From contig JADLAB010000364.1 in NCBI GenBank assembly GCA_020848455.1, positions 1 to 34,303 on the forward strand: a stretch of 34,303 nucleotides of DNA, written 5' to 3'. This document shows, piece after piece, positions 3,668-30,099 of the stretch; the stretch's first letter is position 1, and every line of letters starts with the position of its first letter. The notes under the pieces were generated by a model that worked only from the letters and a program-made list of their open reading frames with translations, ran no database searches and was not told the origin of the DNA. Source of the DNA: Polyangiaceae bacterium (GTDB lineage Bacteria > Myxococcota_A > Polyangia > Polyangiales > Polyangiaceae). Both the position numbers and the translations under genes were made by a program.

Positions 3668-3690
3668 GCCTTCGGTGACGGGTCTCGCGC

Positions 3691-3714
3691 GGCCGCGGCC
3701 CCACCGCCGCGGCC
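3691..3714 (+). terminator. GC-rich hairpin after the 57-residue protein gene
   Basis: A perfect 9-bp stem (GGCCGCGGC / GCCGCGGCC) with a 6-nt loop (CCCACC) starts 24 bp after the stop codon at 3667. No T-run follows, so it is at best a GC-hairpin terminator or an mRNA 3' stabiliser. Confidence 0.35.
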
Positions 3715-3810
3715 TGCGCCGAGCTGCGTCCGGAGCCAGCCCCCGCCCCGTCGGCGGTGGTCCCCCGTCTTGTCGCTCGTCACCCCACGAGCTGCCGGCG
3801 CGCACGAGGT

Positions 3811-3826
3811 TGGCACGCCTCGTGCT
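3811..3826 (+). promoter_or_regulatory. Candidate sigma-54 (RpoN) promoter of the NrfD operon
   Basis: The sequence TGGCACGCCTCGTGCT matches the sigma-54 -24/-12 consensus TGGCACG-N4-TTGCW at every defined position except one (G for the first T of TTGC). The GG and GC dinucleotides have the exact 10-nt separation needed. A transcript would start near 3837 and read into the NrfD gene at 4014. The element lies inside an 8-bp inverted repeat, which might allow competition by a repressor. Confidence 0.5.
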
Positions 3827-4013
3827 CAGACCGTGGAATCGGCATGGCGGGGCGGGCGGACGTCAGCATCGCGGGCTCGGCAGAGTGGCTGCCGGCGCCG
3901 CCACCGCGACGAGCCGCCTCGCCCGGCGGGGCGCGCCGCCGCGCAGAGCAATCGCGGCCGATCGGGTGCGCTCCACGCACAGCGCAGGCACGGGTGGGAG
4001 GAAGAAACCTCGC

Positions 4014-5231
4014 ATGAGCGTCTTCTCGGGACTGGGAACCGCCGCCAAGGAAGTCGTCCGGGGGGGCCGCATCTACTACGCCTGGGTGGCGCTGTTGCTG
4101 GTCTTCATCTCGCTCGGCCTCGTGGCCTACCTCGGCCAGCTGCGCAACGGCCTCGGCGTGACCAACATGCGCAACCAGGTCGCGTGGGGCTTCTACATCT
4201 CGAACTTCACGTTCCTGGTCGGCGTGGCCGCCGCGGCCGTCCTGCTCGTCATCCCGGCCTACGTCTACAACTTCAAGCCCATCAAGGAGATCGCCTTCCT
4301 CGGCGAGCTCATGGCCGTGACGGCCATCGTGATGTGCATTCTCTTCGTCGCGGTCGACGTCGGCGGCCCCGGCAACCTGTGGCACCTCATCCCGTTCATC
4401 GGCCGGCCGAACTTCCCGGTGTCGCTGCTGACGTGGGACATCGTGGTCCTCAACGGCTACCTCGGGATCAACGGCTTCATCTTCTTCTACGTCCTCTACA
4501 AGGTCTCGCGCGGCCAGAAGTACAGCCGCATCCTGCCGCTCATCCTGCTCAGCATTCCCTGGGCGGTCGGCATCCACACGGTCACGGCGTTTCTCTACAA
4601 CGGCCTGGTGGCGCGGCCCTTCTGGAACGCCGCGATCCTGGCACCGCGATTCCTCGCGTCGGCCTTCTGCTCGGGGCCGGCGCTCATGATCCTCGTGCTG
4701 CAGCTCGTGCGCCGTCAGTTCCGCATCGACATCGACGGCCGGGCCCTCACCAAGATCGCCGAGCTCGTCGCGTACGCCCTCGCCTTCAACCTGTTCCTCC
4801 TCGGCGCCGAGGCGTTCAAGGAGTTCTACGGGCAGAGCGAGCACATCGCGCCGATGAAGTACCTCTACCTCGGCCTGCACGGACACCACGCGCTCGTGCC
4901 GTTCATGTGGACCGCGCTGACGCTCAACGTCACCGCGCTGATGCTGTTCCTCGTGCCGAGGTTCCGCAACAACGGGAAGCTCCTCAACGTCGGCTGCGTG
5001 TTCATCCTGTGCGGCGTCTACATCGAGAAGGGCCTCGGCCTGGTCGTGCCGGGCTTCACGCCCGACGCCCTCGGCGAGATCTACGAGTACGTGCCGTCGG
5101 TCACCGAGCTCGCCGTGTCGCTCGGCATCTGGTCGAGTGGCGCGCTGTGCTTCACCCTGCTCGCCAAGTTCAGCATCCCGGTGTTCATCAAGGCCAAGCA
5201 GTTCACCCTGCTCGGCGAGCCAAGCGAATGA
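4014..5231 (+). CDS. NrfD/DsrP-type quinone-interacting membrane subunit
   Basis: This 405-residue integral membrane protein shows about ten hydrophobic helices and the general look of the NrfD/PsrC/DsrP family, which exchanges electrons between menaquinone and periplasmic iron-sulfur or haem subunits. Conserved-looking pieces include 'RIYYAWVALLLVFISLGLVAYLGQL', 'VAWGFYISNFTFLVGVAAAAVLL', 'LLTWDIVVLNGYLGING' and 'GHHALVPFMWTAL'. The length is near that of DsrP, the long form of the family. The start at ATG 4014 is set by the GGGAGGAAG ribosome-binding site; the open frame extends further upstream but that part is Arg-rich and not membrane-like. Its stop overlaps the next start (ATGA at 5228-5231), so it is translationally coupled to the cytochrome gene. 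No catalytic subunit is seen beside it. Confidence 0.88.
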   Translation: MSVFSGLGTAAKEVVRGGRIYYAWVALLLVFISLGLVAYLGQLRNGLGVTNMRNQVAWGFYISNFTFLVGVAAAAVLLVIPAYVYNFKPIKEIAFLGELMAVTAIVMCILFVAVDVGGPGNLWHLIPFIGRPNFPVSLLTWDIVVLNGYLGINGFIFFYVLYKVSRGQKYSRILPLILLSIPWAVGIHTVTAFLYNGLVARPFWNAAILAPRFLASAFCSGPALMILVLQLVRRQFRIDIDGRALTKIAELVAYALAFNLFLLGAEAFKEFYGQSEHIAPMKYLYLGLHGHHALVPFMWTALTLNVTALMLFLVPRFRNNGKLLNVGCVFILCGVYIEKGLGLVVPGFTPDALGEIYEYVPSVTELAVSLGIWSSGALCFTLLAKFSIPVFIKAKQFTLLGEPSE

Positions 5232-5804: not shown

Positions 5805-6770
5805 GTGAAGAACGACGGCTGTACGCCACGCGCCTGTCCCTCTGGCGAGCCCTCGGGCTCCGCGCCCGCGGAGCGCGGCGCTCCGCTGCTCCAGCTCGGG
5901 CGCCGGCCGCCGGATCGCCGCGCCATTCTCGGGGCCTCGGTGGCGGCGGTCGCCGGCGTCGCGACCGGCAGCGGTTGCGGCAATCACCACTTCGACGCCC
6001 ATTACAAGGAGCTCACCGACGAGGACAAGCGGCGCATCTTCGAGCGCATCGAGGCCGAGACGCGCCACAAGACGGGCGTGGACGTCAAGATCTCGGCGCC
6101 ACAGCCCATGGACGGCGTCGAGTTCGCCTATGCCCTCGACCTGTCCTTGTGCAACGGCAACCGGCGCTGCGCCGAGGCCTGCGCGCGCGAGAACAACCTG
6201 CCGGACGTGCCGAAGTTTCGGTACATCCAGGTGCTCGAAATGGACCGGGGCACGCTCGACTTCGAGAACGCCAATGCGTACTACGAGCACGACGAGGTGC
6301 CGGTCCCGGGCAAGGTGTACCTGCCCGTGCAGTGCCAGCACTGCGCCAATCCCCCGTGCGTCAAGGTGTGCCCCGTGACCGCCACCTGGCGCGAGCCCGA
6401 CGGGCTCGTGGTCGTCGATTACAACTGGTGCATCGGCTGCCGGTACTGCATCGCTGCCTGTCCCTACTTCGGGCGACGCTTCAACTTCCACGAGCCCACC
6501 GTCAGGCCGCGCAACATCAACCCCGACATGGGCTACATCTCGAATCGGCTGCGCCCGGTCGGCGTCGTCGAGAAGTGCACCTTCTGCCTGCAGCGCACGC
6601 GCGTCGGGCGCTACCCGGCTTGCCTCGAGGCCTGCCCCACCGGTGCGCGCAAGTTCGGCAACCTCGCCGACCCGAATGGCGAGGTGCGGATCATGCTCGA
6701 GCGCAAGCGCGTCTACGTGCTGAAGGAAGAGCTCGGGACGCTGCCGCGCTTCTACTACTTCTACGGCTGA
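5805..6770 (+). CDS. Tat-exported four-cluster ferredoxin subunit (DsrO/NrfC-like)
   Basis: This protein of 321 residues has a twin-arginine signal (PDRRAILGASVAAVAG, R38-R39) followed by a lipobox-like TGSGC (C58), so it may be a Tat lipoprotein. The Cys groups are C116-N119-C122-C126, C177-C180-C185-C189, C209-C212-C215-C219 and C258-C261-C273-C277. This is the arrangement of DsrO/NrfC/HybA proteins with four [4Fe-4S] clusters, except that Asn119 replaces one expected ligand Cys. It starts with GTG at 5805, preceded by GGAGG, and lies 13 bp after the cytochrome gene. It should sit on the periplasmic face of the NrfD subunit and transfer electrons to or from the cytochrome. A strong hairpin follows at 6817. 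Fold and role are clear; the terminal electron donor or acceptor is unknown. Confidence 0.9.
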   Translation: MKNDGCTPRACPSGEPSGSAPAERGAPLLQLGRRPPDRRAILGASVAAVAGVATGSGCGNHHFDAHYKELTDEDKRRIFERIEAETRHKTGVDVKISAPQPMDGVEFAYALDLSLCNGNRRCAEACARENNLPDVPKFRYIQVLEMDRGTLDFENANAYYEHDEVPVPGKVYLPVQCQHCANPPCVKVCPVTATWREPDGLVVVDYNWCIGCRYCIAACPYFGRRFNFHEPTVRPRNINPDMGYISNRLRPVGVVEKCTFCLQRTRVGRYPACLEACPTGARKFGNLADPNGEVRIMLERKRVYVLKEELGTLPRFYYFYG

Positions 6771-8795: not shown

Positions 8796-9581
8796 GTGCT
8801 ACTCGCCATCGACACCGGCAACACCAACACGAGCTTCGGCGTGTTCGAGGGAGCGGAGCTCGTGCACCACGTGCGCGCCGAGAGTGCGCGCAACCGCACG
8901 CCCGACGAGTACGCCGTGCTCGTGCGCCAGATGCTGGCCCTGCGCGGCGTCGAGGCGAGCTCCATCGACGCGGCGATCATCGCGAGCGTGGTGCCCACGC
9001 TCACGCCCACCATGGTGGAGCTCGTCAGGCGCGGCTTCGGCACCACGCCCCTCGTGGTCGGCCCCGGCATCAAGACCGGCATCAGCATCCTCTACGAGGA
9101 CCCGCGCGCCGTCGGCGCGGACCGCATCGTCAACGCGGTGGCGGCCCACGCCTGGGTGGGCGAGCCGGACAAGGGCGTCATCGTGGTGGACTTCGGGACG
9201 GCGACCACCTTCGACTGCGTGACGCCGAACGGCGACTACCTCGGCGGCGTCATCGCCCCCGGGATCAAGATCAGCGCCGAGGCGCTGTTCGCCCGCGCGG
9301 CGCGCCTGCACCCGGTCGACGTGCAGCGCCCCGAGCGCGTCGTCGGGCGCAACCCGGTGCAGTCGATGCAGTCGGGCATCGTGTTCGGATATGCCGGCCT
9401 CGTCGACGGGCTGTGCGACCGCCTGCGCGACGAGCTCGACTACCCGTGCCGCGTCGTGGCGACCGGCGGACTCGCGCGGCTCATCGCGCCGGAGACGCGC
9501 GCGATCGAGGCCGTGGACGACAACCTGACGCTCACCGGGCTGCGCATCATCCACGAGCGCAACCAGCGTGTCCGCGGCTGA
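8796..9581 (+). CDS. coaX: Type III pantothenate kinase
   Basis: This 261-residue cytoplasmic enzyme phosphorylates pantothenate, the first committed step of coenzyme A synthesis. It belongs to the ASKHA kinase fold and carries the CoaX signatures: phosphate-1 motif D6-TGNTNT near the N-terminus, the pantothenate/catalytic segment 'VGADRIVNA' with D109, and the phosphate-2 motif 'VDFGTATTFD' at 131-140. Length is typical. The start is GTG 8796; the residues after it (LLAIDTGNTNT) fit the usual CoaX N-terminus exactly. CoaX enzymes are insensitive to CoA feedback and replace CoaA in many Deltaproteobacteria. Its 3' end overlaps the next gene by 14 bp, so translation of the permease is probably coupled. 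Confidence 0.95.
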   Translation: MLLAIDTGNTNTSFGVFEGAELVHHVRAESARNRTPDEYAVLVRQMLALRGVEASSIDAAIIASVVPTLTPTMVELVRRGFGTTPLVVGPGIKTGISILYEDPRAVGADRIVNAVAAHAWVGEPDKGVIVVDFGTATTFDCVTPNGDYLGGVIAPGIKISAEALFARAARLHPVDVQRPERVVGRNPVQSMQSGIVFGYAGLVDGLCDRLRDELDYPCRVVATGGLARLIAPETRAIEAVDDNLTLTGLRIIHERNQRVRG

Positions 9582-10611
9582 CGCCCCCCGAGTGCGCGCC
9601 GCGCGGCGCGCCGCCGTGGCGCTCGCCTGCGCGGTGCTCGCGGCGAGCTTCGCGCTCGCCCTGCTGTTCGGCAGCGAGGACGTGTCGCTCGCCGCCGCGC
9701 TGCGCGCGCCCGGCCTCGACCGGACCATCCTCTTCGAGCTGCGCCTGCCGCGCGCGGCGCTCACGGTGCTCGCCGGGGGCGGGCTCGGCCTCGTCGGCGC
9801 GGCCTTCCAGGCCATCCTGCGCAACCCGCTCGCCGAGCCCTACGTGCTCGGGGTGTCGGGCGGGGCGGCCCTCGGCGCGACCACGGTCATCGCGCTCGGG
9901 CTCGGCACGGGCAGCGTGCTCGGCGCCGCGCTGACGCCGCTCTCCGCTCTCGCTGGCGGCCTCGGCGCGACGCTGCTCGTGTACGGCGTGGCGCGGCGCC
10001 CGGCGACCGGCCACGGCGGCGCGACCTCCGGGGCGTCCATCCTGCTCGCCGGCGTGATGGTCAACGCCATCGCGGCGGCGCTCGTCACCTTCGCCAAGAG
10101 CCTGGTCCCGCCGGCTCGCGCCCAGCAGATGCTGCGCTGGCTCACGGGCTTCATCGAGCTGCCGAACGCGCCCGCGCTCGCCGCGACGGCCCTCTACGTG
10201 CTCGCGGGCGCGCTGCTCCTGTGGCGCGACGCCGCGCGCATGAACCTGCTCGGGCTCGGCGCGGAGAGCGCCGAGCTCGTCGGCGTGGACGTACGCAGCC
10301 TCGAGCGGCGGGTCTTCGTCGCCGCCTCGGCGGTGGTGGGCGCCATCGTGTGCCTCACCGGGCTCATCGGCTTCGTCGGGCTGCTCGTGCCGCACGCGGC
10401 CCGGAGGCTCGTCGGGCCGGACCACCGCGTGCTCCTGCCCCTGTCCTTCCTGGGTGGCGGCGCGATGCTGCTCCTGTGCGATCTCGGCGCCCGCCTCGCG
10501 TTCCGCTGGCTCGGGAGCGAGCCCCCGGTCGGCGCCGTGACGGCGCTGCTCGGCGGACCGCTGTTCCTCGCGCTGCTCGCCCGCCGACCCGACCCGCACG
10601 CGACGGGTTGA
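9568..10611 (+). CDS. FecCD-family ABC transporter permease
   Basis: This 347-residue membrane protein has nine or ten hydrophobic helices and typical FecCD/BtuC phrases: 'LRLPRAALTVLAGGGLGLVGAAFQAILRNPLAEPYVLGVSGGAALGA', 'LLGLGAESAELVGVDV' and 'GLIGFVGLLVPHAARRLVGPDHR'. The last contains the loop that contacts the ATPase. Family members form the dimeric membrane channel of importers for iron-siderophore, haem or cobalamin. The start is GTG 9568, inside the 3' end of coaX. The ATPase and substrate-binding genes normally next to such a permease are absent on both sides, so its substrate cannot be inferred and partners must lie elsewhere. The short 16-kDa-type fused forms are ruled out by length. 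Confidence 0.9.
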   Translation: MSAADAPRVRAARRAAVALACAVLAASFALALLFGSEDVSLAAALRAPGLDRTILFELRLPRAALTVLAGGGLGLVGAAFQAILRNPLAEPYVLGVSGGAALGATTVIALGLGTGSVLGAALTPLSALAGGLGATLLVYGVARRPATGHGGATSGASILLAGVMVNAIAAALVTFAKSLVPPARAQQMLRWLTGFIELPNAPALAATALYVLAGALLLWRDAARMNLLGLGAESAELVGVDVRSLERRVFVAASAVVGAIVCLTGLIGFVGLLVPHAARRLVGPDHRVLLPLSFLGGGAMLLLCDLGARLAFRWLGSEPPVGAVTALLGGPLFLALLARRPDPHATG

Positions 10612-21344: not shown

Positions 21345-22445
21345 TCAGGCCGTCTTCGTCGTCGCGGACTCGGTCTCGGGCTCGAGGCCGAGCTCGTCGT
21401 CGAGCTCCTTCAGGAGCTTCTTCGCGCGCTTCGACAGCTTGGTCGGGACGGCCACCTGCACGACGACGCGCAGCGCGCCCGCCCCGCGCCCGTCGAGCCG
21501 CGGCACGCCCTTGCCGCGCACCGTGACGACGTCCCCGGGCTGCGTGCCCTGCGGCAGCTCGACCTCGAGCGTCGTGCCGTCGAGCATCTCGATGGGCGCC
21601 CGCGTGCCGAGCACGGCCTCCGGGAAGGAGATGACGACGCGGGTCGCCAGATCGCTCTCGTGCCGCTCGAAGCGCTCGTGCGCCGCGACCTCGACGTCGA
21701 CGTAGAGGTCGCCCGGCGGCGCACCCTGGTCGCCCGGCAGCCCCTGGCCGGTGACGCGCAGGCGGTGCCCGTTGTCGATGCCCGCCGGGAAGTTCACGAC
21801 GACCTTGCGCGGCCGCTCCTCCCAGCCCGCGCCATGGCAGGTCGGGCACGGGTCCGAGATCACCCGCCCCTCGCCGCGACAGGACGGGCAGGTCTGCGAG
21901 AACATGATGAAGCCGCGCGAGGTCGACACCTGGCCGCCCCCACCGCAGGTGGTGCAGGTCGACGGCTGCGCCCCCTCGCGCGAGCCCGACCCCTCGCACG
22001 CCGAACAGCGCGCCGGGGCCTGGATGGTGATCTCCTTCTTGCAGCCGGCGACGGCCTCCTCGAGCGTGAGCTCGCGCCCGACGCGCATGTCCTGACCGCG
22101 CCGGGCCGCGCGCCGCCCCCGCCCGCCGCCGCGCCCGAAGCCGCCGAAGCCGCCGAACAGCTCGGAGAAAATGTCCTGGAAATGCGAGAAGATGTCGCCG
22201 CCCATGTCGACCGAGCCGGCCACGCCCTCGTGGCCGAAGCGGTCGTAGCGGGCGCGCTTGTCGCCGTCGCTCAGGACCTGGTAGGCCTCGGTCGCCTCCT
22301 TGAAGCGCGCCGTCGCCTCCTCGCAGCCCTTGTTCCGATCGGGGTGGTGCTGGAGCGCGAGCTTGCGGTACGCCTTGCGTACGTCGTCGGCCGAAGCGTC
22401 ACGGGCCACGCCCAAGACTTCGTAGTAGCAGCGTTTCTCACTCAT
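21345..22445 (-). CDS. dnaJ: Chaperone DnaJ (Hsp40)
   Basis: This 366-residue cytoplasmic co-chaperone stimulates DnaK ATPase and binds unfolded proteins. The J domain (residues 5-70) has the HPD motif at 34-36, followed by a Gly/Phe region (about 75-110). The zinc-finger domain (147-208) has all four CxxCxGxG repeats, although some Gly positions vary (C147-SACEGSG, C164-TTCGGGG, C186-PSCRGEG, C200-PTCHGAG). A C-terminal peptide-binding domain follows. Length is typical. DnaK and GrpE are not adjacent, so this is an isolated dnaJ copy and could be a paralogue. The start at ATG 22445 lies 97 bp after the Ser/Thr kinase gene on the same strand, so the two may share a transcript. Confidence 0.95.
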
Positions 22446-22542: not shown

Positions 22543-24168
22543 TCATCCCGACTTCTCGGTGGACAGGGCGGCGAGACGCCCACCCCCCTGCGACGCGGGG
22601 CTCGCCTCGACGCCCGCCTGCGACGGCGGGCTCGACCGCAGCCCGCCCGAGGGCCTGCGCTGGCTCATGTCGACCGTGAGCGTCCGCTGCCCCTTGACCG
22701 CGGGCTCGTTGCTCGGGCTGCGCAGGCGGGGGTCGTCGTGCTCCCGCCACCAGCGCCGCGCCTGCGCCTCGTCCCAGAGCGAGGTGCAGGCGCAGGTGCG
22801 CAGGCGCGCCATGAACGCCTGGGCCGTCTGGGGCCGGTCCGCGCGGGACTTCGCCAGGCAGTCGAGGATGAGCTCCTCGAGGTCCGCGGGCACCTCCGCG
22901 TCGGTGCGCTGGGAGGGGGGCGTCGGCGTCGTGTTGAGGTGGTGGTTCGAGACCGCGATGAACGTGCTGCCCTGGAACACGTGCTGGCCGGTGACGAGGT
23001 AGTAGCCGAGCGCGCCGAGCGAGTAGATGTCGGCCTGCTCGCCCACCTCGCCGGGCGACTGGATCGACTCGGGCGACATGAAGAGCGGCGTGCCCATGAT
23101 CTCGTCGATGCCGGTGAGCGTCTGGTGCGGGCGGGTCGCCATCTCCTTGACGAGGCCGAAGTCGAGGACCTTGGCGACGTCCGCCACGCCACCGCGCTCG
23201 CACAGCATCACGTTGGCCGGCTTGATGTCGCGGTGGATGAGGCCGACGCCGTGCGCCTCGGCGAGCGCCCCCGCGACCTGCAGGAGGATGTGGGCGGCGC
23301 GGGCGGCGGGCAGCGGCCCGGTGAGCTCCACGACCCGCTGCAGCGTGGGGCCCTCGATGAGCTCCATCGCGTAGTAGAAGATGCCCTGCGGCGTGCGCCC
23401 GTAGTCGAAGACCGTCACCGTGTTCGGGTGCGTGAGCCGCGCGGTGAGCTGGACCTCGAGCTCGAAGCGCCCGAGGATGCGCTTGCTGGTCTTGTCCGGC
23501 AGCAGCAGCTTCACGGCGGTGGGGCGGCGCAGCATCGCGTGGCTCGCGCGGTACACGACGCCCATGCCGCCCTCGCCGATCTTCTCCTCGAGGGTGTACT
23601 GGCCGAGCTGGCTCGTGCGGATGAGCCGCGCGAGCACGATGATGCCGCAGATGCCGAGCAGCATCGCGAGCCCGGTGACGAGCACCACGTTCGTGACCGA
23701 GGCCCAGGTGGTCGCCTCGACCCAGCGCGTGGACACGCCGAGGTGCACGGTGCCGAGCACGCCGTTCGCGACCGGCGTCGGCAGATCCCGCACCGCCCCT
23801 TCCTCGACCAGCAGCGTCGTCGGCGTGGTGCGCCGAGCCACCTTCAAGAGGTCCGCCGGGAAGCCGTCGGCGGTGAAGGAATGGTCGGTCACTTCCCCGT
23901 CCGGAGAGGTCACGAACACGTAGGCCACGTCCGGATTGGCGCTGCGCGCGTTCTGGAGCTGCCGGCCGACGGCCAGGCGGTCGCGGTACGCGAGCGGCTC
24001 GCTCAGCTGCACGGCGAGCGTGCTCGACAGGGTCTCGCCGGCGCGATCCGCCGACGCCGCCAGCGCCCGCGAGAGCGTGCGGTTGAGCAGGCCCGTCGAG
24101 ATCGCGGCGCCGACCACCATCAGCACGCAGAAGCTGAGGATGATGCGGGTGTGGGTGTTCTTCAACAT
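22543..24168 (-). CDS. Transmembrane Hanks-type Ser/Thr kinase with periplasmic sensor domain
   Basis: This 541-residue protein has TM1 (about 8-28), a periplasmic PAS/Cache-like domain (about 29-156), TM2 (about 157-182) and, immediately after, a complete Ser/Thr kinase (about 191-460). Catalytic residues are present: Gly loop G198-x-G200-G201-x-G203, Lys220, H312-R313-D314 with K316 and N319, D336-F-G, and S365-P-E. The C-terminal 80 residues are disordered. Most bacterial Hanks kinases are N-terminal kinases with a C-terminal sensor; here the order is reversed as in histidine kinases. Residues 1-183 align gaplessly with the histidine kinase at 26915 (about 60% identical by hand). The start ATG overlaps the stop of the binding-lipoprotein gene (TGATG), so they are coupled. 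The signal and substrates are unknown. Confidence 0.92.
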   Translation of the reverse strand: MLKNTHTRIILSFCVLMVVGAAISTGLLNRTLSRALAASADRAGETLSSTLAVQLSEPLAYRDRLAVGRQLQNARSANPDVAYVFVTSPDGEVTDHSFTADGFPADLLKVARRTTPTTLLVEEGAVRDLPTPVANGVLGTVHLGVSTRWVEATTWASVTNVVLVTGLAMLLGICGIIVLARLIRTSQLGQYTLEEKIGEGGMGVVYRASHAMLRRPTAVKLLLPDKTSKRILGRFELEVQLTARLTHPNTVTVFDYGRTPQGIFYYAMELIEGPTLQRVVELTGPLPAARAAHILLQVAGALAEAHGVGLIHRDIKPANVMLCERGGVADVAKVLDFGLVKEMATRPHQTLTGIDEIMGTPLFMSPESIQSPGEVGEQADIYSLGALGYYLVTGQHVFQGSTFIAVSNHHLNTTPTPPSQRTDAEVPADLEELILDCLAKSRADRPQTAQAFMARLRTCACTSLWDEAQARRWWREHDDPRLRSPSNEPAVKGQRTLTVDMSQRRPSGGLRSSPPSQAGVEASPASQGGGRLAALSTEKSG

Positions 24169-25157
24169 CAGGGGCGGACGGCGTCGGCCGAGGGCGCGGG
24201 GAGCACGCCGAGCTCACGCCAGCTCTGCGCGATCGGGTCATATGCTGCATCCGGCAGCTTGACGAAGCCACTGATTCCGAGGTCCTTCAGCACCTCCTTG
24301 CCCGCCGGGTCGGAGGGCATGCCGCCGAGCACGCGCGCGAGATCGTCGGCGAGATCCTGCGACGCGTGCGGCGACACGACGACCGGGTTGCTCGGGAACT
24401 CGCCGGAGCTGTCGATGATCACGAGCTTGTCCTTGATGGCCGGGCTCTCGCGCACGAGGTCGTCCCAGATGAGGCTGTCGACGGAGCCGGCGTCGGCGAT
24501 GCCGTCGCGCACCGCCTGGATCGTGTTGTCGTGGCTGTAGGTGAAGAGCGTGCGCTCGAAGAACGCGGCCGGCGTCGTGCCGAGCGCGCGGAGCGCCGCG
24601 GCCACGTGGCGGTAGCCGCCGTTCGAGAGCGGGTCGGAGAACGCGAAGACCGTGCCGCGCAGGTCCTCGAGCCGCGTGCGACCGGAGTCCTTGCGTGTGA
24701 GGACGAGCGCCCGGTAGGTCGCGCTGTCGGCCACGGTCGGCGTGACGAGCGCCCGCAGCCCGAACTGCGCGCGCCCGACGGTGTACGCGCCGGCACACAC
24801 GAGGCCCGCCTCCGCGCTGCCGGTGCGCAGGAGATCGTTCAGCTCCGCGTACGTCTTGCGGCGCACGATCTCGACGCGCCGCTTCAGCCGGCCCATGAGG
24901 TAGCTCGCGAAGCGCGACGCCGGGAGCGTGCTGCGCTCGGGCGACAGCACGCTCGCGAACACGAACCGGAGCGGCGCCTCGTCGACGCCGACCTCGGCTC
25001 CGGCCACCACCTTGGGCCCGCTCGTCAGGCGCACGACGATCTCGGGGTCGTCGGTCGCCGCGCACGACAGCGCCAAGAGCGCCCACCACACGAGCCACAC
25101 GCGCTGCAGCCGGCTGCGAGGGGCCACTGCACCGCTCGGACGCCTGCTCGGTCCCAT
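24168..25157 (-). CDS. PhnD-like periplasmic binding lipoprotein (Ser/Thr-kinase arm)
   Basis: This 329-residue protein has a signal with lipobox LALSC (Cys32) and a PhnD/SBP-type body (about 38-320): 'LRFVFASVLSPERSTLPASRFASYLMGRLKRRVEIVRRKTYAELNDLLRTGSAEAGLVCAGAYTVG', 'GTVFAFSDPLSNGGYRHVAAAL' and 'TYSHDNTIQAVRDGIADAGSVDSL'. PhnD-type proteins bind phosphonate, phosphite or phosphate analogues for ABC import. No permease or ATPase is nearby; instead the gene is coupled to a sensor kinase, so a receptor role is more likely. A paralogue in the opposite arm (25934) is clearly over half identical, especially near 'TYSHDNTIQAVRDGIAD' and 'DLGISGFVKLPDAAYD'. The gene is 49 bp downstream of the small membrane protein gene, in the same direction. 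Confidence 0.88.
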   Translation of the reverse strand: MGPSRRPSGAVAPRSRLQRVWLVWWALLALSCAATDDPEIVVRLTSGPKVVAGAEVGVDEAPLRFVFASVLSPERSTLPASRFASYLMGRLKRRVEIVRRKTYAELNDLLRTGSAEAGLVCAGAYTVGRAQFGLRALVTPTVADSATYRALVLTRKDSGRTRLEDLRGTVFAFSDPLSNGGYRHVAAALRALGTTPAAFFERTLFTYSHDNTIQAVRDGIADAGSVDSLIWDDLVRESPAIKDKLVIIDSSGEFPSNPVVVSPHASQDLADDLARVLGGMPSDPAGKEVLKDLGISGFVKLPDAAYDPIAQSWRELGVLPAPSADAVRP

Positions 25158-25206
25158 GCCTACCCCCTCACTCTGCGCCGCGTGCGACGCGCGCCGTCCT
25201 CGGGGA

Positions 25207-25545
25207 CTAGTCCTTCTGCGGGGCGCGGTTGCCCTTCACCACCGCCGCGATGACGACGCCGACCGCGCCGGCGAGCGAGCCGACGACGGCCCCGAAGAGC
25301 GCGCCCATCGGATCCCACACGAGGCCGCCCACCGTCACGCCCGCGACCGTCGAGGCGGAGCACCAGTAGAAGAGTGCCCGCGCGAGCGCGGTCTCCTCGG
25401 CGACGGTGGCCTGCGAGGTCCGGACGTCGACCGCGCCGGCGGGGACGGACGGGCTCGGGCGCACGCGCAGGCGGACCGCGCTGTTGGCCACCTCGGCGGT
25501 TTCGCTCTGGACGACCGGACTGTGCTTGAGCTGCTGAGCCTTCAT
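25207..25545 (-). CDS. 112-residue membrane protein heading the Ser/Thr-kinase arm
   Basis: This protein has a polar N-terminal half (about 1-55, 'MKAQQLKHSPVVQSETAEVANSAVRLRVRPSPSVPAGA') and two hydrophobic helices (about 57-78 and 82-104) with Gly-rich faces ('AGVTVGGLVWDPMGALFGAVVGSLAGAVGVVIAAVV'). It ends in a Lys/Arg tail. The open frame continues to 25743 but ATG 25545 is supported by a GGAGG ribosome-binding site. It is the first gene of the minus-strand arm after the divergent spacer, and a sigma-54-like promoter lies about 90 bp upstream. It could be an accessory of the binding protein or kinase, but no family is recognised. Its counterpart is missing from the plus-strand arm. Confidence 0.7.
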   Translation of the reverse strand: MKAQQLKHSPVVQSETAEVANSAVRLRVRPSPSVPAGAVDVRTSQATVAEETALARALFYWCSASTVAGVTVGGLVWDPMGALFGAVVGSLAGAVGVVIAAVVKGNRAPQKD

Positions 25546-25633
25546 GACGGACCCCTCCAGGGTGGATCGAGTGCTGCGCGCGTCGCGCGGGCCACCTGCC
25601 CCAGCGGGGGTGGTGGAGCCTGGTGACGCCTTG

Positions 25634-25649
25634 AGCAAGGGCCGCGCCA
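25634..25649 (-). promoter_or_regulatory. Candidate sigma-54 promoter of the Ser/Thr-kinase arm
   Basis: Read on the minus strand the sequence is TGGCGCGGCCCTTGCT. It matches TGGCACG-N4-TTGCW with one change (G for A in TGGCAC) and has the correct GG-to-GC spacing of 10 nt. Transcription would begin near 25624, about 80 nt before the start codon at 25545. Because the plus-strand arm encodes a sigma-54 activator, this promoter could link the two arms. Confidence 0.5.
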
Positions 25650-25749
25650 GCGCGGTCCCGCACCCGGAAACCGAGGCCTCGACTGCACTTGCGCTCGCCG
25701 ACGAGGGCACGGGGTGGCGAGACCTGTGCCGAGATCTCGTCACCGCGCG

Positions 25750-25763
25750 TGGTCATCTGACCA
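25750..25763. promoter_or_regulatory. Inverted repeat TGGTCA-TC-TGACCA, possible activator site
   Basis: The two 6-bp arms are perfectly complementary with a 2-bp spacer. It lies about 100 bp upstream of the leftward sigma-54-like promoter, the distance usual for enhancer sites of NtrC-type activators, and about 115-120 bp upstream of the rightward TATATT box. Confidence 0.4.
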
Positions 25764-25879
25764 TAGCTCGTCAGGCCGGCCGCGGCGCCGCCCCGCTCGG
25801 GAACTCGACCCGCCGGGCGCGCCTCGACTATCTTCGGCGCCGATCGCCTCGAGCCGGGTGCATCCGCTTGCGCGGCGGT

Positions 25880-25885
25880 TATATT
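25880..25885 (+). promoter_or_regulatory. Possible -10 box of the two-component arm
   Basis: TATATT is one of very few AT-only hexamers in this GC-rich spacer and lies about 50 bp before the start of the rightward binding-lipoprotein gene. No good -35 hexamer is seen 16-18 bp upstream, so this is tentative. Confidence 0.25.
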
Positions 25886-25933
25886 GGGGCGCGGGTCGCA
25901 GCGGGCGTACCGAGGGGGGCTCGGAGTGATGAC

Positions 25934-26905
25934 GTGACGATGACCAACATGCGGATCTGGGCGCTCGCCCTGCTCCGGCTGTGTGGTTTGGCGGCGTTCG
26001 TCGCGTGCGCCGCCCTCACGTCCTCTTGCAGCTCCGACGAAGACACGATCGTCGTGAGGCTCCAGAGCGGGCCCCTGGCCACCGTCGCGCCCGACACCCA
26101 CGTCGACGACCCCCCGCTGCGCTTCGTGCTCGCGGGGGGCCTGGCCGCGGAGCGCAGTGCCTTGCCGTACGCCCGGTTCGCCAACGCCCTGACGGGCGCG
26201 CTGCGCCGCCACGTCGAGATCGTGCGACGCCGGACGTACGCCGAGCTGAACGAGCTCCTGCGCACCGGCCGTGCCGAGGCGGGCATCCTGTGCCCGGGCG
26301 CCTTCGCCGTGGGCCGGGAGGAGTTCGGCCTGCGCGCCGTGCTGACGGCGACGGTGGACGACAAGGCGACCCACCAGGCGCTCGTGGTCGTGCGGCGCGA
26401 CTCGGGGCGCAAGAGCCTCGACGAGCTGCGCGGGGCGGTCTTCGCGTTCACGGACCCGCTGTCGGCGAGCGGCTACCAGTACGTGGCCACGACGCTGCTC
26501 GCCCGCGGGACCAACGCCGCGGCCTTCTTCAAGCGCACCATCTTCACCTACAGCCACGACAACACCATCCAGGCGGTGCGCGACGGGATCGCAGACGGCG
26601 GCTCGGTGCACAGCCTCGTCTGGGCGAGCATGTTGAGCGAGACGCCGAGCCTCGGCGAGGCGCTCGTGGTCGTCGAGAGCTCGCCCGACCTGCCGAGCAA
26701 CCCCGTGGTCGTGTCGCCGCAGGCGCCCGCGGGTCTGGCCGAGGCGCTGTCGCACGCCCTGCTCGACATGCCGTCGAGCAGCGCCGGCCGTGGGGTGCTA
26801 ATGGATCTGGGCATCTCCGGTTTCGTCAAGCTGCCCGATGCCGCCTATGACTCGGTCGTACGAAGCTGGCGCGAGCTCGGAGTGATCCCCGCTCCGCCCC
26901 CGTGA
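25934..26905 (+). CDS. PhnD-like periplasmic binding lipoprotein (two-component arm)
   Basis: This 323-residue product has a lipoprotein signal ending in LTSSC (Cys32 if GTG 25934 is used). GGAG lies 7 nt before GTG 25934; ATG 25940 and ATG 25949 are alternative starts in frame. The mature body matches the opposite-arm lipoprotein throughout ('EIVRRRTYAELNELLRTGRAEAGILCPGAFAVGREEFGLRAVLTATV', 'DPLSASGYQYVATTLLARGTNAAAFFKRTIFTYSHDNTIQAVRDGIADGGS'). It belongs to the PhnD-like solute-binding group for oxyanion-type ligands. There is no transporter nearby, and 9 bp later the histidine kinase begins, so it is probably a ligand receptor feeding that kinase. Differences from its paralogue are concentrated near the N-terminus and the last third, so the two could have different ligands. 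Confidence 0.88.
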   Translation: MTMTNMRIWALALLRLCGLAAFVACAALTSSCSSDEDTIVVRLQSGPLATVAPDTHVDDPPLRFVLAGGLAAERSALPYARFANALTGALRRHVEIVRRRTYAELNELLRTGRAEAGILCPGAFAVGREEFGLRAVLTATVDDKATHQALVVVRRDSGRKSLDELRGAVFAFTDPLSASGYQYVATTLLARGTNAAAFFKRTIFTYSHDNTIQAVRDGIADGGSVHSLVWASMLSETPSLGEALVVVESSPDLPSNPVVVSPQAPAGLAEALSHALLDMPSSSAGRGVLMDLGISGFVKLPDAAYDSVVRSWRELGVIPAPPP

Positions 26906-26914
26906 CCAGCCCGG

Positions 26915-28684
26915 ATGTTCAGGCGCTTCGACTCGAAGATCATCGTCTCCTTCTGTCTGCTGATGCTGGCGGGCGGGGTGGTGACCACCACGGTCCTCAG
27001 CCGGAACCTCTCGCGCGAGCTCGTCGGCGCGGTGGAACGCAGCGGCACCGCGCTGTCGCGGGCGCTTGCCACGGGTCTCGCCGAGCCGCTGTCGCACCAC
27101 GACCACGTCGCCGTGCGGCGCGACCTCGTGCAGGCGCAGAGCGGCAACCCCGACATCGCCTACGTCTTCGTCGCCTCGGACGAGGGTCAGGTGAGCGACC
27201 ACTCGTTCGCGATCGACGGCTTCCCCGCGGACCTCTTGCCGCTGGCGGAGCGCTCGACGCCGACCACGCTGCGGGTCGAGGACGGCCTCGTGCGCGACCT
27301 GCCGCAGCCCATCGCGGAGGGGGCGCTCGGCACGGTGCACGTGGGCGTGTCGCTGCGCTGGGCCAGCGCGACGACCTCGGCTTCGGTCACGAACGTGCTC
27401 CTCGTCACGGGCCTCGCGATGCTGGTCGGCATCGTCGGGATCCTCCTCTTGGCCCGGCTGATCACGCGACCGATGCTGGGCCTGGTGGGGGCTGCCAAGC
27501 GCCTCGGCCGCGGCGACTACGGGACGCCGGCGCGGGTGGCGGGTCGCGACGAGGTCGCGAGCCTGGCCAACACCTTCAACACGCTCGCCTCGCAGATCCG
27601 GGCGCGCATGGCCGAGAGCGAGGAGCTGCGCTCCTACGTCGAGCGTATTCTCGACCACATGGACGCCGAGGTCTGCGTCATCTCGGAGGACGGCGTCATC
27701 GACTACGCCAACCGCATGGCGATCGAGCGGCGCGGCGTGGCGGCCGGCGAGAAGTGCGCCACGGCGCTCGGAAGCGAGCGCCCGTGCGCCACCTGCTCCG
27801 TCGCCGAGGTGCTCGAGACCGGCCGCGTCCTGAACCGCTCGCACGTCTCCCCCTCGGGGCGGCACTACGAGCTCACCTACTTCCCCATGACCGGGCGCGA
27901 CGGCCGCCGTGCGGTGGTCGAGAGCGCGCTCGACGTGACCGAGCAGCGCAAGCTCGCCCTTCGGGTCCACCGCGCCGAGCGGCTCGCCGTCGCGGGCTCG
28001 GTCGCCGCGGGCGTCGTGCACACCATCAACAACCCGCTCGACGGCGTCACGCGCGCGCTCGGCCTCGCCGAGAGCCGGCTCACCGACAACCCGGAGCAGG
28101 CGCGCAAGATGCTGGCCCTCGCGCGTGAGGGGACCGAGCGCATCGCCGCCGTGACGCACCGCTTGCTCGTGCTGGCACGCGCCGAGGAGCCGAGCGAGCA
28201 CACGCCGGTCACGCTCGACGCCATCGTCGCACAGGCTACCGAGGTCGTGCAGCTGAAGGCGCAGGCGACGGGCGCGCGCGTGGAGCTCGCGCTCGCGCCC
28301 GAGCTGCCCGCGGTGAGCGTCGACCCGCACGGCATCACCGAGGTGCTCGTGAACCTGCTCATGAACGCCATCGACGCCTGCGGCAAGGGCGGAACGATCA
28401 CCGTGGCGACGCGCCTCGCGGACGCCGCCACGGTGGAGCTCAGCGCGAGCGACGACGGTCCGGGCATCGCGCCCGAGCACCTCGATCGCGTCTTCGAGCC
28501 CTTCTTCACCACCAAGGAGGTGGGGCGCGGCACGGGTCTCGGCCTGTCGGTCGCGCGGCGCATCGTCGAGGCGCACGGCGGCGAGATCGAGGTGACGTCG
28601 ACCCCGGGCAGCGGCGCGACGTTCCGGGTGCGACTGCCGATCGCGACGCCGCCGCTCGCGAGCGCCGGGAGGGCCGACGCATGA
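26915..28684 (+). CDS. Membrane sensor histidine kinase (NtrB-type)
   Basis: This 589-residue protein has TM1 (about 8-28), a periplasmic PAS/Cache-like domain (about 29-156), TM2 (about 157-182), HAMP (about 180-232) and a PAS domain (about 235-345). The PAS domain has a Cys-rich loop (C281, C291, C294). The phosphoacceptor helix ('VAAGVVHTINNPLDGV', His369) follows, then the ATPase domain with N box 'LVNLLMNAIDACGKG', D-box 'DDGPGIAP', 'VFEPFFTTK' and 'GTGLGLSVARRI'. The H-box HTINNPL is of the NtrB/AtoS kind that pairs with NtrC-like regulators, and such a gene overlaps its stop by ATGA at 28681-28684. The first 183 residues are paralogous to the Ser/Thr kinase at 22543. The domain set is complete and it should be active. 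Confidence 0.95.
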   Translation: MFRRFDSKIIVSFCLLMLAGGVVTTTVLSRNLSRELVGAVERSGTALSRALATGLAEPLSHHDHVAVRRDLVQAQSGNPDIAYVFVASDEGQVSDHSFAIDGFPADLLPLAERSTPTTLRVEDGLVRDLPQPIAEGALGTVHVGVSLRWASATTSASVTNVLLVTGLAMLVGIVGILLLARLITRPMLGLVGAAKRLGRGDYGTPARVAGRDEVASLANTFNTLASQIRARMAESEELRSYVERILDHMDAEVCVISEDGVIDYANRMAIERRGVAAGEKCATALGSERPCATCSVAEVLETGRVLNRSHVSPSGRHYELTYFPMTGRDGRRAVVESALDVTEQRKLALRVHRAERLAVAGSVAAGVVHTINNPLDGVTRALGLAESRLTDNPEQARKMLALAREGTERIAAVTHRLLVLARAEEPSEHTPVTLDAIVAQATEVVQLKAQATGARVELALAPELPAVSVDPHGITEVLVNLLMNAIDACGKGGTITVATRLADAATVELSASDDGPGIAPEHLDRVFEPFFTTKEVGRGTGLGLSVARRIVEAHGGEIEVTSTPGSGATFRVRLPIATPPLASAGRADA

Positions 28685-30099
28685 CGACCCGCATCCTCAT
28701 CGTGGACGACGAGAAGCTCACCCGGCAGACGCTCGAGCTGCAGCTCACCGACGAGGGTTTCGAGGTCGAGAGCGCGGAGAACGCCTTCGTGGCGCTCGAG
28801 CTCCTCGGGCAAAAGGAGGTGGACCTCGTCCTCAGCGATCTGCGCATGCCGTCGATGGACGGGCTCGAGTTCCTGCGGCGCATCCGCGAGGGCTGGCCCG
28901 AGACGGCGGTCGTGCTCATGACCGCCTACGGCACGGTCGCCACGGCGGTCACGGCGATGCAGGCGGGCGCGGCCGACTACCTCACGAAGCCGCTCCACAC
29001 CGAGGAGCTGCTCATCCGTGTCCGGCGCGTGCTCGAGCGCCGGGCGGACGTCGCCGAGATCCGGAAGCTCCGCCAGGACGCGGCGCGGCAGCGCCAGTTC
29101 GGCGGGCTCGTCTTCCGCTCGAGCGCCATGGCCGCGGTCGTCGACCGGGTGCTCGCCACCGTGGACACGGACGCGAGCGTGCTCATCGAGGGCGAGACCG
29201 GCACCGGCAAGGGCGTGCTCGCCAAGGCCCTGCACGACGCGAGCTCGCGGGCGAGCGCACCGTTCGTCATCGTCGGCTGCGCCGGGCTCAACCCCAACCT
29301 CGTCGAGAGCGAGCTGTTCGGCCACGAGGCCGGCGCGTTCACCGGGGCGGCGCGCCAGCGCAAGGGTCGGCTCGAGGCCGCCAACGGCGGCACCGTGCTC
29401 ATCGACGACGTCGACGACCTGCCGCTCGAGGTGCAGGTGAGCCTCCTGCGCTTCTTGCAGGACCGCTCCTTCGAGCGCGTCGGGAGCAACACGACGCGCC
29501 GGAGCGACGTGCGCGTCGTGTGCGCGACGAAGAAGGCGCTGCCCGAGCTCGTGCGCGCGGGACGTTTCCGCGAGGACCTCTACTACCGGGTCAACACGGT
29601 GGTGGTCGCCCTGCCACCGCTGCGCGCGCGGCGCGGCGACATCGCGCCGCTCGCCGAGCACTTCGCGAGCGGCTTCTGGGCCGCGCGCGGCTACTCCCCG
29701 CCGCCCGTGCTCCTGCCCGAGACGCTCGCCACGTTGCTCGCGCACGACTGGCCCGGCAACGTGCGCGAGCTCGTCCACGCCGTGGAGCACGCCGTGATCT
29801 TCGCCCGCGGCGCGCCGATCGAGCCGCGCCACCTGCCGCCGACGCTCGCGCCGAAGGCGACCGCACCGCTCGTCGAGCTGCAGCTCGGCGAGGCCGCGGT
29901 GTCCTTCACCGAGATCATGACGCGCTGCGAGCAGCAGCTGTTCGAGTGGGCGCTCACGCGCGCGGGTGGCAACCAGGTCCAGGCGGCCGAGCTGCTCTGC
30001 CTGCCCCGCACGACCTTCCGGAGCCGGCTCGCGGCGCTCGGCGGGCGTGTGGCCGGCGCACGCGACGACGAGCCCCCGTCGTCGAAGAGCCGGGGCTAG
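28681..30099 (+). CDS. NtrC-family sigma-54-dependent response regulator
   Basis: This 472-residue regulator has a receiver domain (1-120) with D9/D10, phosphoacceptor D53 in 'LVLSDLRMP', T81 and K103. The AAA+ domain (about 140-380) has Walker A G171-ETGTGKG, sigma-54 contact loop GAFTGA (218-223), and Walker B 'GTVLIDD' with D242-D243 in place of the usual D-E, plus 'GRFREDLYYRVN'. A C-terminal Fis-type helix-turn-helix (about 418-455) contains 'GNQVQAAELLCLPRTTFRSRL'. Its ATG overlaps the kinase stop, so the two are a cognate pair. It should activate sigma-54 promoters by ATP hydrolysis after phosphorylation; a near-consensus one faces the opposite arm at 25634-25649. The stop overlaps that of a convergent gene by 4 bp. 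Confidence 0.95.
   Translation: MTTRILIVDDEKLTRQTLELQLTDEGFEVESAENAFVALELLGQKEVDLVLSDLRMPSMDGLEFLRRIREGWPETAVVLMTAYGTVATAVTAMQAGAADYLTKPLHTEELLIRVRRVLERRADVAEIRKLRQDAARQRQFGGLVFRSSAMAAVVDRVLATVDTDASVLIEGETGTGKGVLAKALHDASSRASAPFVIVGCAGLNPNLVESELFGHEAGAFTGAARQRKGRLEAANGGTVLIDDVDDLPLEVQVSLLRFLQDRSFERVGSNTTRRSDVRVVCATKKALPELVRAGRFREDLYYRVNTVVVALPPLRARRGDIAPLAEHFASGFWAARGYSPPPVLLPETLATLLAHDWPGNVRELVHAVEHAVIFARGAPIEPRHLPPTLAPKATAPLVELQLGEAAVSFTEIMTRCEQQLFEWALTRAGGNQVQAAELLCLPRTTFRSRLAALGGRVAGARDDEPPSSKSRG

Follow-up and report, generated by a model that had tools for sequence, protein, structure and literature searches.

A duplicated XSR-type receptor and sensor module joined to a Hanks-type Ser/Thr kinase beside its two-component relative in a Polyangiaceae genome

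In the TtrSR and TorT-TorS systems, anaerobic respiration is controlled by a histidine kinase that takes its input from a periplasmic receptor (PhnD-like or of another kind), the receptor domain of TtrS being fused to the kinase; we know of no Ser/Thr branch in either. AioX, ArxX, and ArrX form the signalling branch of their receptor family and, together with an S histidine kinase and an R regulator, control molybdoenzymes (PMC5908839). A receptor lipoprotein can also control a Ser/Thr kinase, as in GlnH-GlnX-PknG of Actinobacteria (PMC9769921; PMC6069109), and a catalog exists of Ser/Thr kinases that carry solute-binding or CHASE2 domains (PMC1262709). Here we describe two divergent gene arms on contig JADLAB010000364.1 of a Polyangiaceae bacterium (assembly GCA_020848455.1), whose 34,303 nucleotides are the whole stretch analyzed and are called the window below. 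The right arm, on the plus strand, encodes lipoprotein B, a sensor histidine kinase (HK), and a response regulator (RR); the left arm, on the minus strand, pairs lipoprotein A with a Hanks-type Ser/Thr kinase (STK). A preliminary description of this DNA had placed both arms at 22543–30099, and the genes lie where it put them. Our preferred reading, to which we assign a probability of roughly 0.6, is that an XSR system (receptor X, kinase S, regulator R) was duplicated and one copy refitted with a Hanks kinase, the STK arm likely being under its parent's control. The computations themselves show the genes and their homologies, the duplication, the direction in which the output changed, the conservation of the parts and the purifying selection on them, and the pocket differences.

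The STK (541 aa; 22543–24168, minus strand; Pkinase, 1.5e-43) is organized as a first transmembrane helix (TM1), an sCache domain, TM2, an 8-residue linker, the kinase domain, and a Ser/Pro-rich tail. Its sensor front end (residues 1–183) is encoded at 23620–24168 and its kinase domain (residues 191–452) at 22813–23598, both on the minus strand. The HK (26915–28684, plus strand) runs from TM1, sCache, and TM2 into HAMP, PAS_4, HisKA, and HATPase_c. Residues 1–183 of the two kinases had been said to align without gaps at about 110 identical positions, and the MAFFT alignment agreed (gapless, 60% identical); BLASTP extended the match to 116 of 209 identical residues, again without gaps (E 2e-73), and the TM lengths of the two front ends are the same. 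Beyond this region the outputs are completely different, as first described: Pfam assigned Pkinase to the STK and HAMP, PAS_4, HisKA, and HATPase_c to the HK, and neither Pfam nor BLASTP found an output domain common to both. The front end is modeled as a single-Cache sensor between two TM helices (AlphaFold2, pLDDT 84.6), with best matches to the sensor domains of WalK, CitA, and DctB. An orthologous front end (L054) scored 34.0 bits against sCache_3_2, above the cutoff of 28.4 bits, and both window copies fell below that cutoff.

Lipoproteins A (24168–25157, minus strand) and B (approximately 25949–26905, plus strand) are paralogs as well, with 184 of 301 residues identical (61%) and one gap (BLASTP, E 1e-130). 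Both carry the Phosphonate-bd/PhnD-like label in Pfam and NCBIfam, and the preliminary description took them for receptors of a phosphonate- or phosphate-like ligand. The view of them as receptors rather than transport parts stands, no ABC transporter adjoining the arms (a FecCD permease lies about 12 kb off, at 9568–10611); the ligand class does not, as sequence places both, and fold lipoprotein B as well, in the ArrX/AioX oxyanion-sensor subfamily. Their nearest solved relatives by phmmer were ArrX (1.3e-42) and AioX (4e-34 and 2e-31), compared with 2.5e-13 for the phosphite receptor PtxB (overall 1e-13 to 1e-14) and about 1e-3 to 1e-4 for PhnD; TtrS was a weak match of lipoprotein A. Foldseek ranks 1–11 for the AlphaFold2 model of lipoprotein B (pLDDT 83.7) were all ArrX/AioX, with ArrX first, followed by AioX. 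A phosphonate or phosphate uptake receptor was ruled out because ArrX/AioX are far closer and no transporter adjoins the arms. Lipoprotein B, the HK, and an NtrC/AtoC-type RR (28681–30099, plus strand; receiver, sigma-54 activator AAA+ domain with GAFTGA, and HTH_8) are contiguous in X-S-R order on one strand, and the right arm is, judged by gene order and receptor class, an XSR system.

Among 145 relatives surveyed, both arms occurred together only in the window genome (G000) and in a second genome of the same genus (G001, a groundwater Myxococcales metagenome-assembled genome [MAG]; public record L053); the co-occurrence in a related genome that the preliminary description looked for is thus seen, with arm parts 89–98% identical between the two. 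The closest other relatives are single lipoprotein-HK-RR arms in another Myxococcota lineage (L054/G223), in L055/G145, and in two Gemmatimonadota MAGs (L056 and L057); their lipoproteins are 47–58% identical to those of the window, and none of these arms includes an STK. More distant single arms are spread over Polyangia and other phyla. A class-wide search detected the front end in 14 of 318 genomes; outside G000 and G001, the outputs examined were histidine kinases, and no front end was found joined to a Ser/Thr kinase domain. A 379-genome phylum sample likewise yielded no Ser/Thr fusion outside the window genome, and some of its distant front ends belong to chemoreceptors or cyclases. Phylogenetic trees recovered lipoproteins A and B as sister duplicates (clade support 100/99) and did the same for the STK and HK front ends (92/89), so that separate acquisition of the two front ends is supported by neither tree. 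Because the trees join both pairs as sisters and the relatives carry a single HK arm, we take the HK arm to be ancestral; and since an HK is the output in the other close relatives found, the two-component output is the ancestral one and the Ser/Thr output derived. The preliminary description had allowed re-plumbing from two-component to Ser/Thr phosphorylation or the reverse, and only the former direction agrees with these results. Both the duplication and the direction of change are well supported. In G001, a second XSR arm lies beside a molybdoenzyme (L047; C181:141289–142872) and is apparently missing from G000.

The AioX pocket consists of seven residues, Y88, C106, Y131, S161, S163, H192, and D210, a set described as conserved across AioX, ArxX, and ArrX (PMC5908839), and we compared the window receptors with these published residues by alignment, in AioX numbering. 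Neither has the full canonical pocket. Lipoprotein A keeps six of the seven residues (Y88, C106, Y131, S161, H192, and D210) and differs at 163 only (S163G; the residue there is Thr or Ser in relatives). Lipoprotein B keeps Y88, C106, S161, and H192 and differs at 131 and 210 (Y131H and D210H), with N162A in addition. Y131 and D210 are kept by nearly all relatives; the conservation of C106 among L053–L073 is partly a product of the scan pattern used to select them. Pocket states of both G001 lipoproteins are identical to those of the window copies. To judge from the alignment, the STK-arm receptor retained an oxyanion-type pocket and the HK-arm receptor changed, and the two probably see different ligands; given the pocket differences, the single shared ligand first proposed for both is probably not correct. 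As C106 and H192 are retained, the ligand contacts of lipoprotein B include one Cys and three His, a set that might accommodate a metal or some other oxyanion. No arsenic molybdoenzyme (Aio, Arx, or Arr) was found beside the arms among the scanned window genes, and neither G000 nor G001 has an ArrA/ArxA-level match (best ArrA score in the window genome 103 bits, cutoff 1600). The ligand is therefore not readable from genomic context and arsenic itself is not implied; arsenic respiration as a direct target was ruled out on the same result.

The left arm is headed by a small membrane protein with a Gly-zipper-like segment (25207–25545, minus strand; 90% identical in G001), whose matches to Gly-zipper_YMGG/C19orf12 in the Pfam scan were weak and below cutoff. 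About 89 bp before this gene lies a sigma-54-like −24/−12 element, TGGCGCGGCCCTTGCT (25649–25634, minus strand), that reads into the genes for the small protein, lipoprotein A, and the STK; the preliminary description included neither the small gene nor the element. The element has GG-N10-GC spacing (intergenic Markov P ∼0.001), and G001 retains it, next to an indel. Farther upstream, at a distance of about 94 bp (25727–25742, no strand assigned), lies the palindrome TGCCGAGATCTCGTCA, a candidate regulator binding site whose function we infer; G000 and G001 have a single copy each, at this locus. Neither G223 nor G145 has the exact pattern, so the palindrome is not usable beyond the genus and was dropped as a family-wide binding site. 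Since the last gene of the right arm encodes a sigma-54 activator whose GAFTGA motif is intact, activation of the STK arm by the two-component arm is the simplest reading. It is also a probable one, because the only exact sigma-54 element in the window, kept in G001, reads into the STK operon; a cascade is plausible.

The two arms might instead be parallel, unlinked sensors that share ancestry and adjacency but respond to different ligands and work separately; the sigma-54-like element would then be there by chance or belong to another activator. The pocket differences do point to different ligands, divergent transcription provides each arm with its own upstream region, and the window has weaker sigma-54 look-alikes in other places. 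We nonetheless consider independence rather unlikely, since the sole exact match in 34 kb (0.04 expected) stands at the start of the STK arm, with canonical spacing and conservation in G001, near a sigma-54 activator gene. In several relatives, XSR arms adjoin molybdoenzyme operons into which sigma-54-like elements read: L056 has NrfD and an ArrA/ArxA-type enzyme (1146 bits), G223 has an operon for an FeS protein, a PhsA/ArrA-type enzyme, a chaperone, and NrfD beside its XSR arm, and G082 has a similar pair. The window locus suggests a change of target for an XSR regulator, with a kinase taking the place of a respiratory molybdoenzyme. In G125 and G102, small membrane proteins weakly like the window Gly-zipper protein (L045:11304–11831 and L046:14707–15192, both plus strand) lie close to single XSR arms and to NrfD-like genes.

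The catalytic motifs of the STK are intact (GEGGMGVV, AVKLL, HRDIKPAN, DFG, and SPE, at positions 198, 218, 312, 335, and 364), as are the H-box (HTINNP) and nucleotide-binding boxes of the HK. In the left arm, dN/dS between G000 and G001 was 0.125 for the STK (0.078 for the kinase domain), 0.28 for lipoprotein A, and 0.25 for the small gene; in the right arm it was 0.105 for lipoprotein B and 0.13 for the HK and the RR, and an adjacent DnaJ gene gave 0.07, so every gene of both arms is under purifying selection (omega 0.07–0.28 for all genes). The nearest relative of the STK kinase domain in its own genome is a Hanks kinase (G000:C44; 51% over 372 aa). Their likeness is dense from the junction (RTSQLGQYTL / RARQLGQYTL) onward, directly behind TM2, and the N-terminus of C44 is a multi-TM region unrelated to the front end. 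A C44-like Hanks kinase is thus a candidate source of the STK kinase domain, which follows TM2 after about 8 residues, HAMP and PAS being absent. No third copy of the arm was found in the window genome, where the best other kinase was again C44.

Ordinary domain shuffling, in which one Hanks kinase of a kinase-rich genome gained a Cache front end with no special link to the two-component arm, would draw on the more than 150 kinase matches in this genome and on sensory domains known to be shared between HKs and STKs (PMC1262709). Also in its favor, a further Hanks kinase of this genome (C35; L011:193–2445, plus strand) carries a C-terminal PhnD-like domain within one protein (Pkinase 9.9e-31, Phosphonate-bd 1.6e-47), an independent joining of the PhnD-like receptor fold to a Ser/Thr kinase. 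Such a stray fusion would not need its partner receptor to be duplicated too and kept adjacent, as it has been in two genomes under purifying selection, and we judge this explanation unlikely. More doubtful still is a same-ligand branch point, with one oxyanion eliciting a slow transcriptional answer (two-component) and a fast post-translational one (STK), possibly through mixed HK-STK front-end dimers: the 60% identity and equal TM lengths of the front ends and the retention of C106, Y88, S161, and H192 by both receptors would allow it, but in lipoprotein B two of the seven ligand contacts, both retained by almost all relatives, have changed, within a pocket set described as conserved across AioX/ArxX/ArrX (PMC5908839), with N162A as a third change.

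Under the preferred reading of duplication and refitting, the XSR receptor and sensor front end would have been duplicated in an ancestor of one Myxococcota genus. One copy would have retained the two-component output, and in the other a C44-like Hanks kinase domain would have been joined directly after TM2, replacing HAMP, PAS, and the histidine kinase. Liganded lipoprotein B would dock on the HK sCache and set the HK autokinase; phosphorylated RR would then bind in the region that separates the arms and, together with sigma-54 RNA polymerase, transcribe the small protein, lipoprotein A, and STK genes, perhaps including DnaJ. Liganded lipoprotein A would in turn dock on the STK sCache, and the STK, by dimerizing or reorienting, would become active and phosphorylate Ser/Thr substrates. 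The ligand classes, docking, sigma-54 link, kinase activation, and substrates in this scheme are proposals. A more elaborate version can be offered only tentatively: a circuit of two stages, the first being a two-component system whose receptor has been re-tuned (a lipoprotein B site of Cys106, His131, His192, and His210, possibly of metal type). Via sigma-54, this system would switch on the second stage, an STK arm built from duplicates of its receptor and sensor; two different ligands would then be read in series, and one ancestral input module would serve two phosphorylation chemistries.

Several points weigh against the preferred reading. The STK arm is present in just two genomes of one genus, whose receptors and kinases are 93–97% identical, and the front-end clade has support of only 92/89, the alternative grouping not being rejected (p-AU 0.094). 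The sigma-54 site and the palindrome are inferred from sequence, and the G001 site scores 10/12. The canonical target enzyme, ArrA/ArxA, was detected in neither genome. Among the systems compared, we know of no precedent for signaling from TM2 to a kinase over 8 residues without HAMP. The HK H-box lacks the usual acidic residue (H-T-I-N-N-P, not H-E/D). Throughout the HK clade (window, L054–L057, and L083), T, A, or S replaces that residue (VVH[TAS][IV]NNPLDG and close variants), and because the whole clade lacks it, we regard the change as a subfamily trait rather than decay.

Of the neighboring genes, DnaJ (21345–22445, minus strand) lies 98 bp behind the STK on the same strand and in the same place in G001; it may be an additional operon member or an unlinked housekeeping gene. 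About 16 kb from the arms, the window encodes DsrP (3675–5231, plus strand; above the NCBIfam cutoff) and a DsrO-like Fe-S protein (5805–6770, plus strand), a respiratory membrane module with no visible catalytic subunit that is apparently on the G001 contig too (L099).

In a literature search of partial coverage, we found no paper treating AioX together with a Ser/Thr protein kinase, nor any account of a duplicated XSR receptor and sensor of which one copy, next to its parent, is joined to a Hanks kinase. The proposal of an undescribed signaling system applies only to the STK arm and its probable coupling to the parent; the HK arm is of a described kind, XSR. The locus provides a natural domain swap, the same receptor and Cache sensor standing side by side with a histidine kinase output and a Hanks kinase output, the STK junction being placed within a few residues. 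It thereby offers a route to asking by what means a membrane sensor switches on a Ser/Thr kinase in bacteria and for what purpose HAMP is required. The stimuli of such kinases have been called an outstanding question (PMC6069109), and here the stimulus class can be predicted: a small ligand acting through an ArrX/AioX-type receptor.

The right arm resembles AioXSR, ArxXSR, and ArrXSR (PMC5908839) in its X-S-R order, its receptor subfamily, and its AtoC-type sigma-54 regulator, as in AioR and ArxR, and some of its close relatives lie beside ArrA/ArxA-like or PhsA-like molybdoenzymes. Unlike in those systems, no molybdoenzyme adjoins the window arms and no ArrA/ArxA was found in the genome, the pocket of lipoprotein B is altered, and a second copy of the receptor and sensor would drive a Ser/Thr kinase. 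The STK arm recalls GlnH-GlnX-PknG in that a lipoprotein receptor would relay a periplasmic signal via a membrane protein to a Ser/Thr kinase; GlnX and PknG are separate proteins, however, whereas the window STK has its sensor fused to the kinase (Pfam reports the kinase and only a weak sCache), and this sensor, unlike GlnX, is a sister copy of that of the neighboring HK. With the solute-binding and CHASE2 kinases (PMC1262709) the locus shares sensory or solute-binding domains common to HKs and STKs, but those are single-protein fusions or cases of scattered sharing, whereas here receptor and sensor have both been duplicated and the two versions stand side by side.

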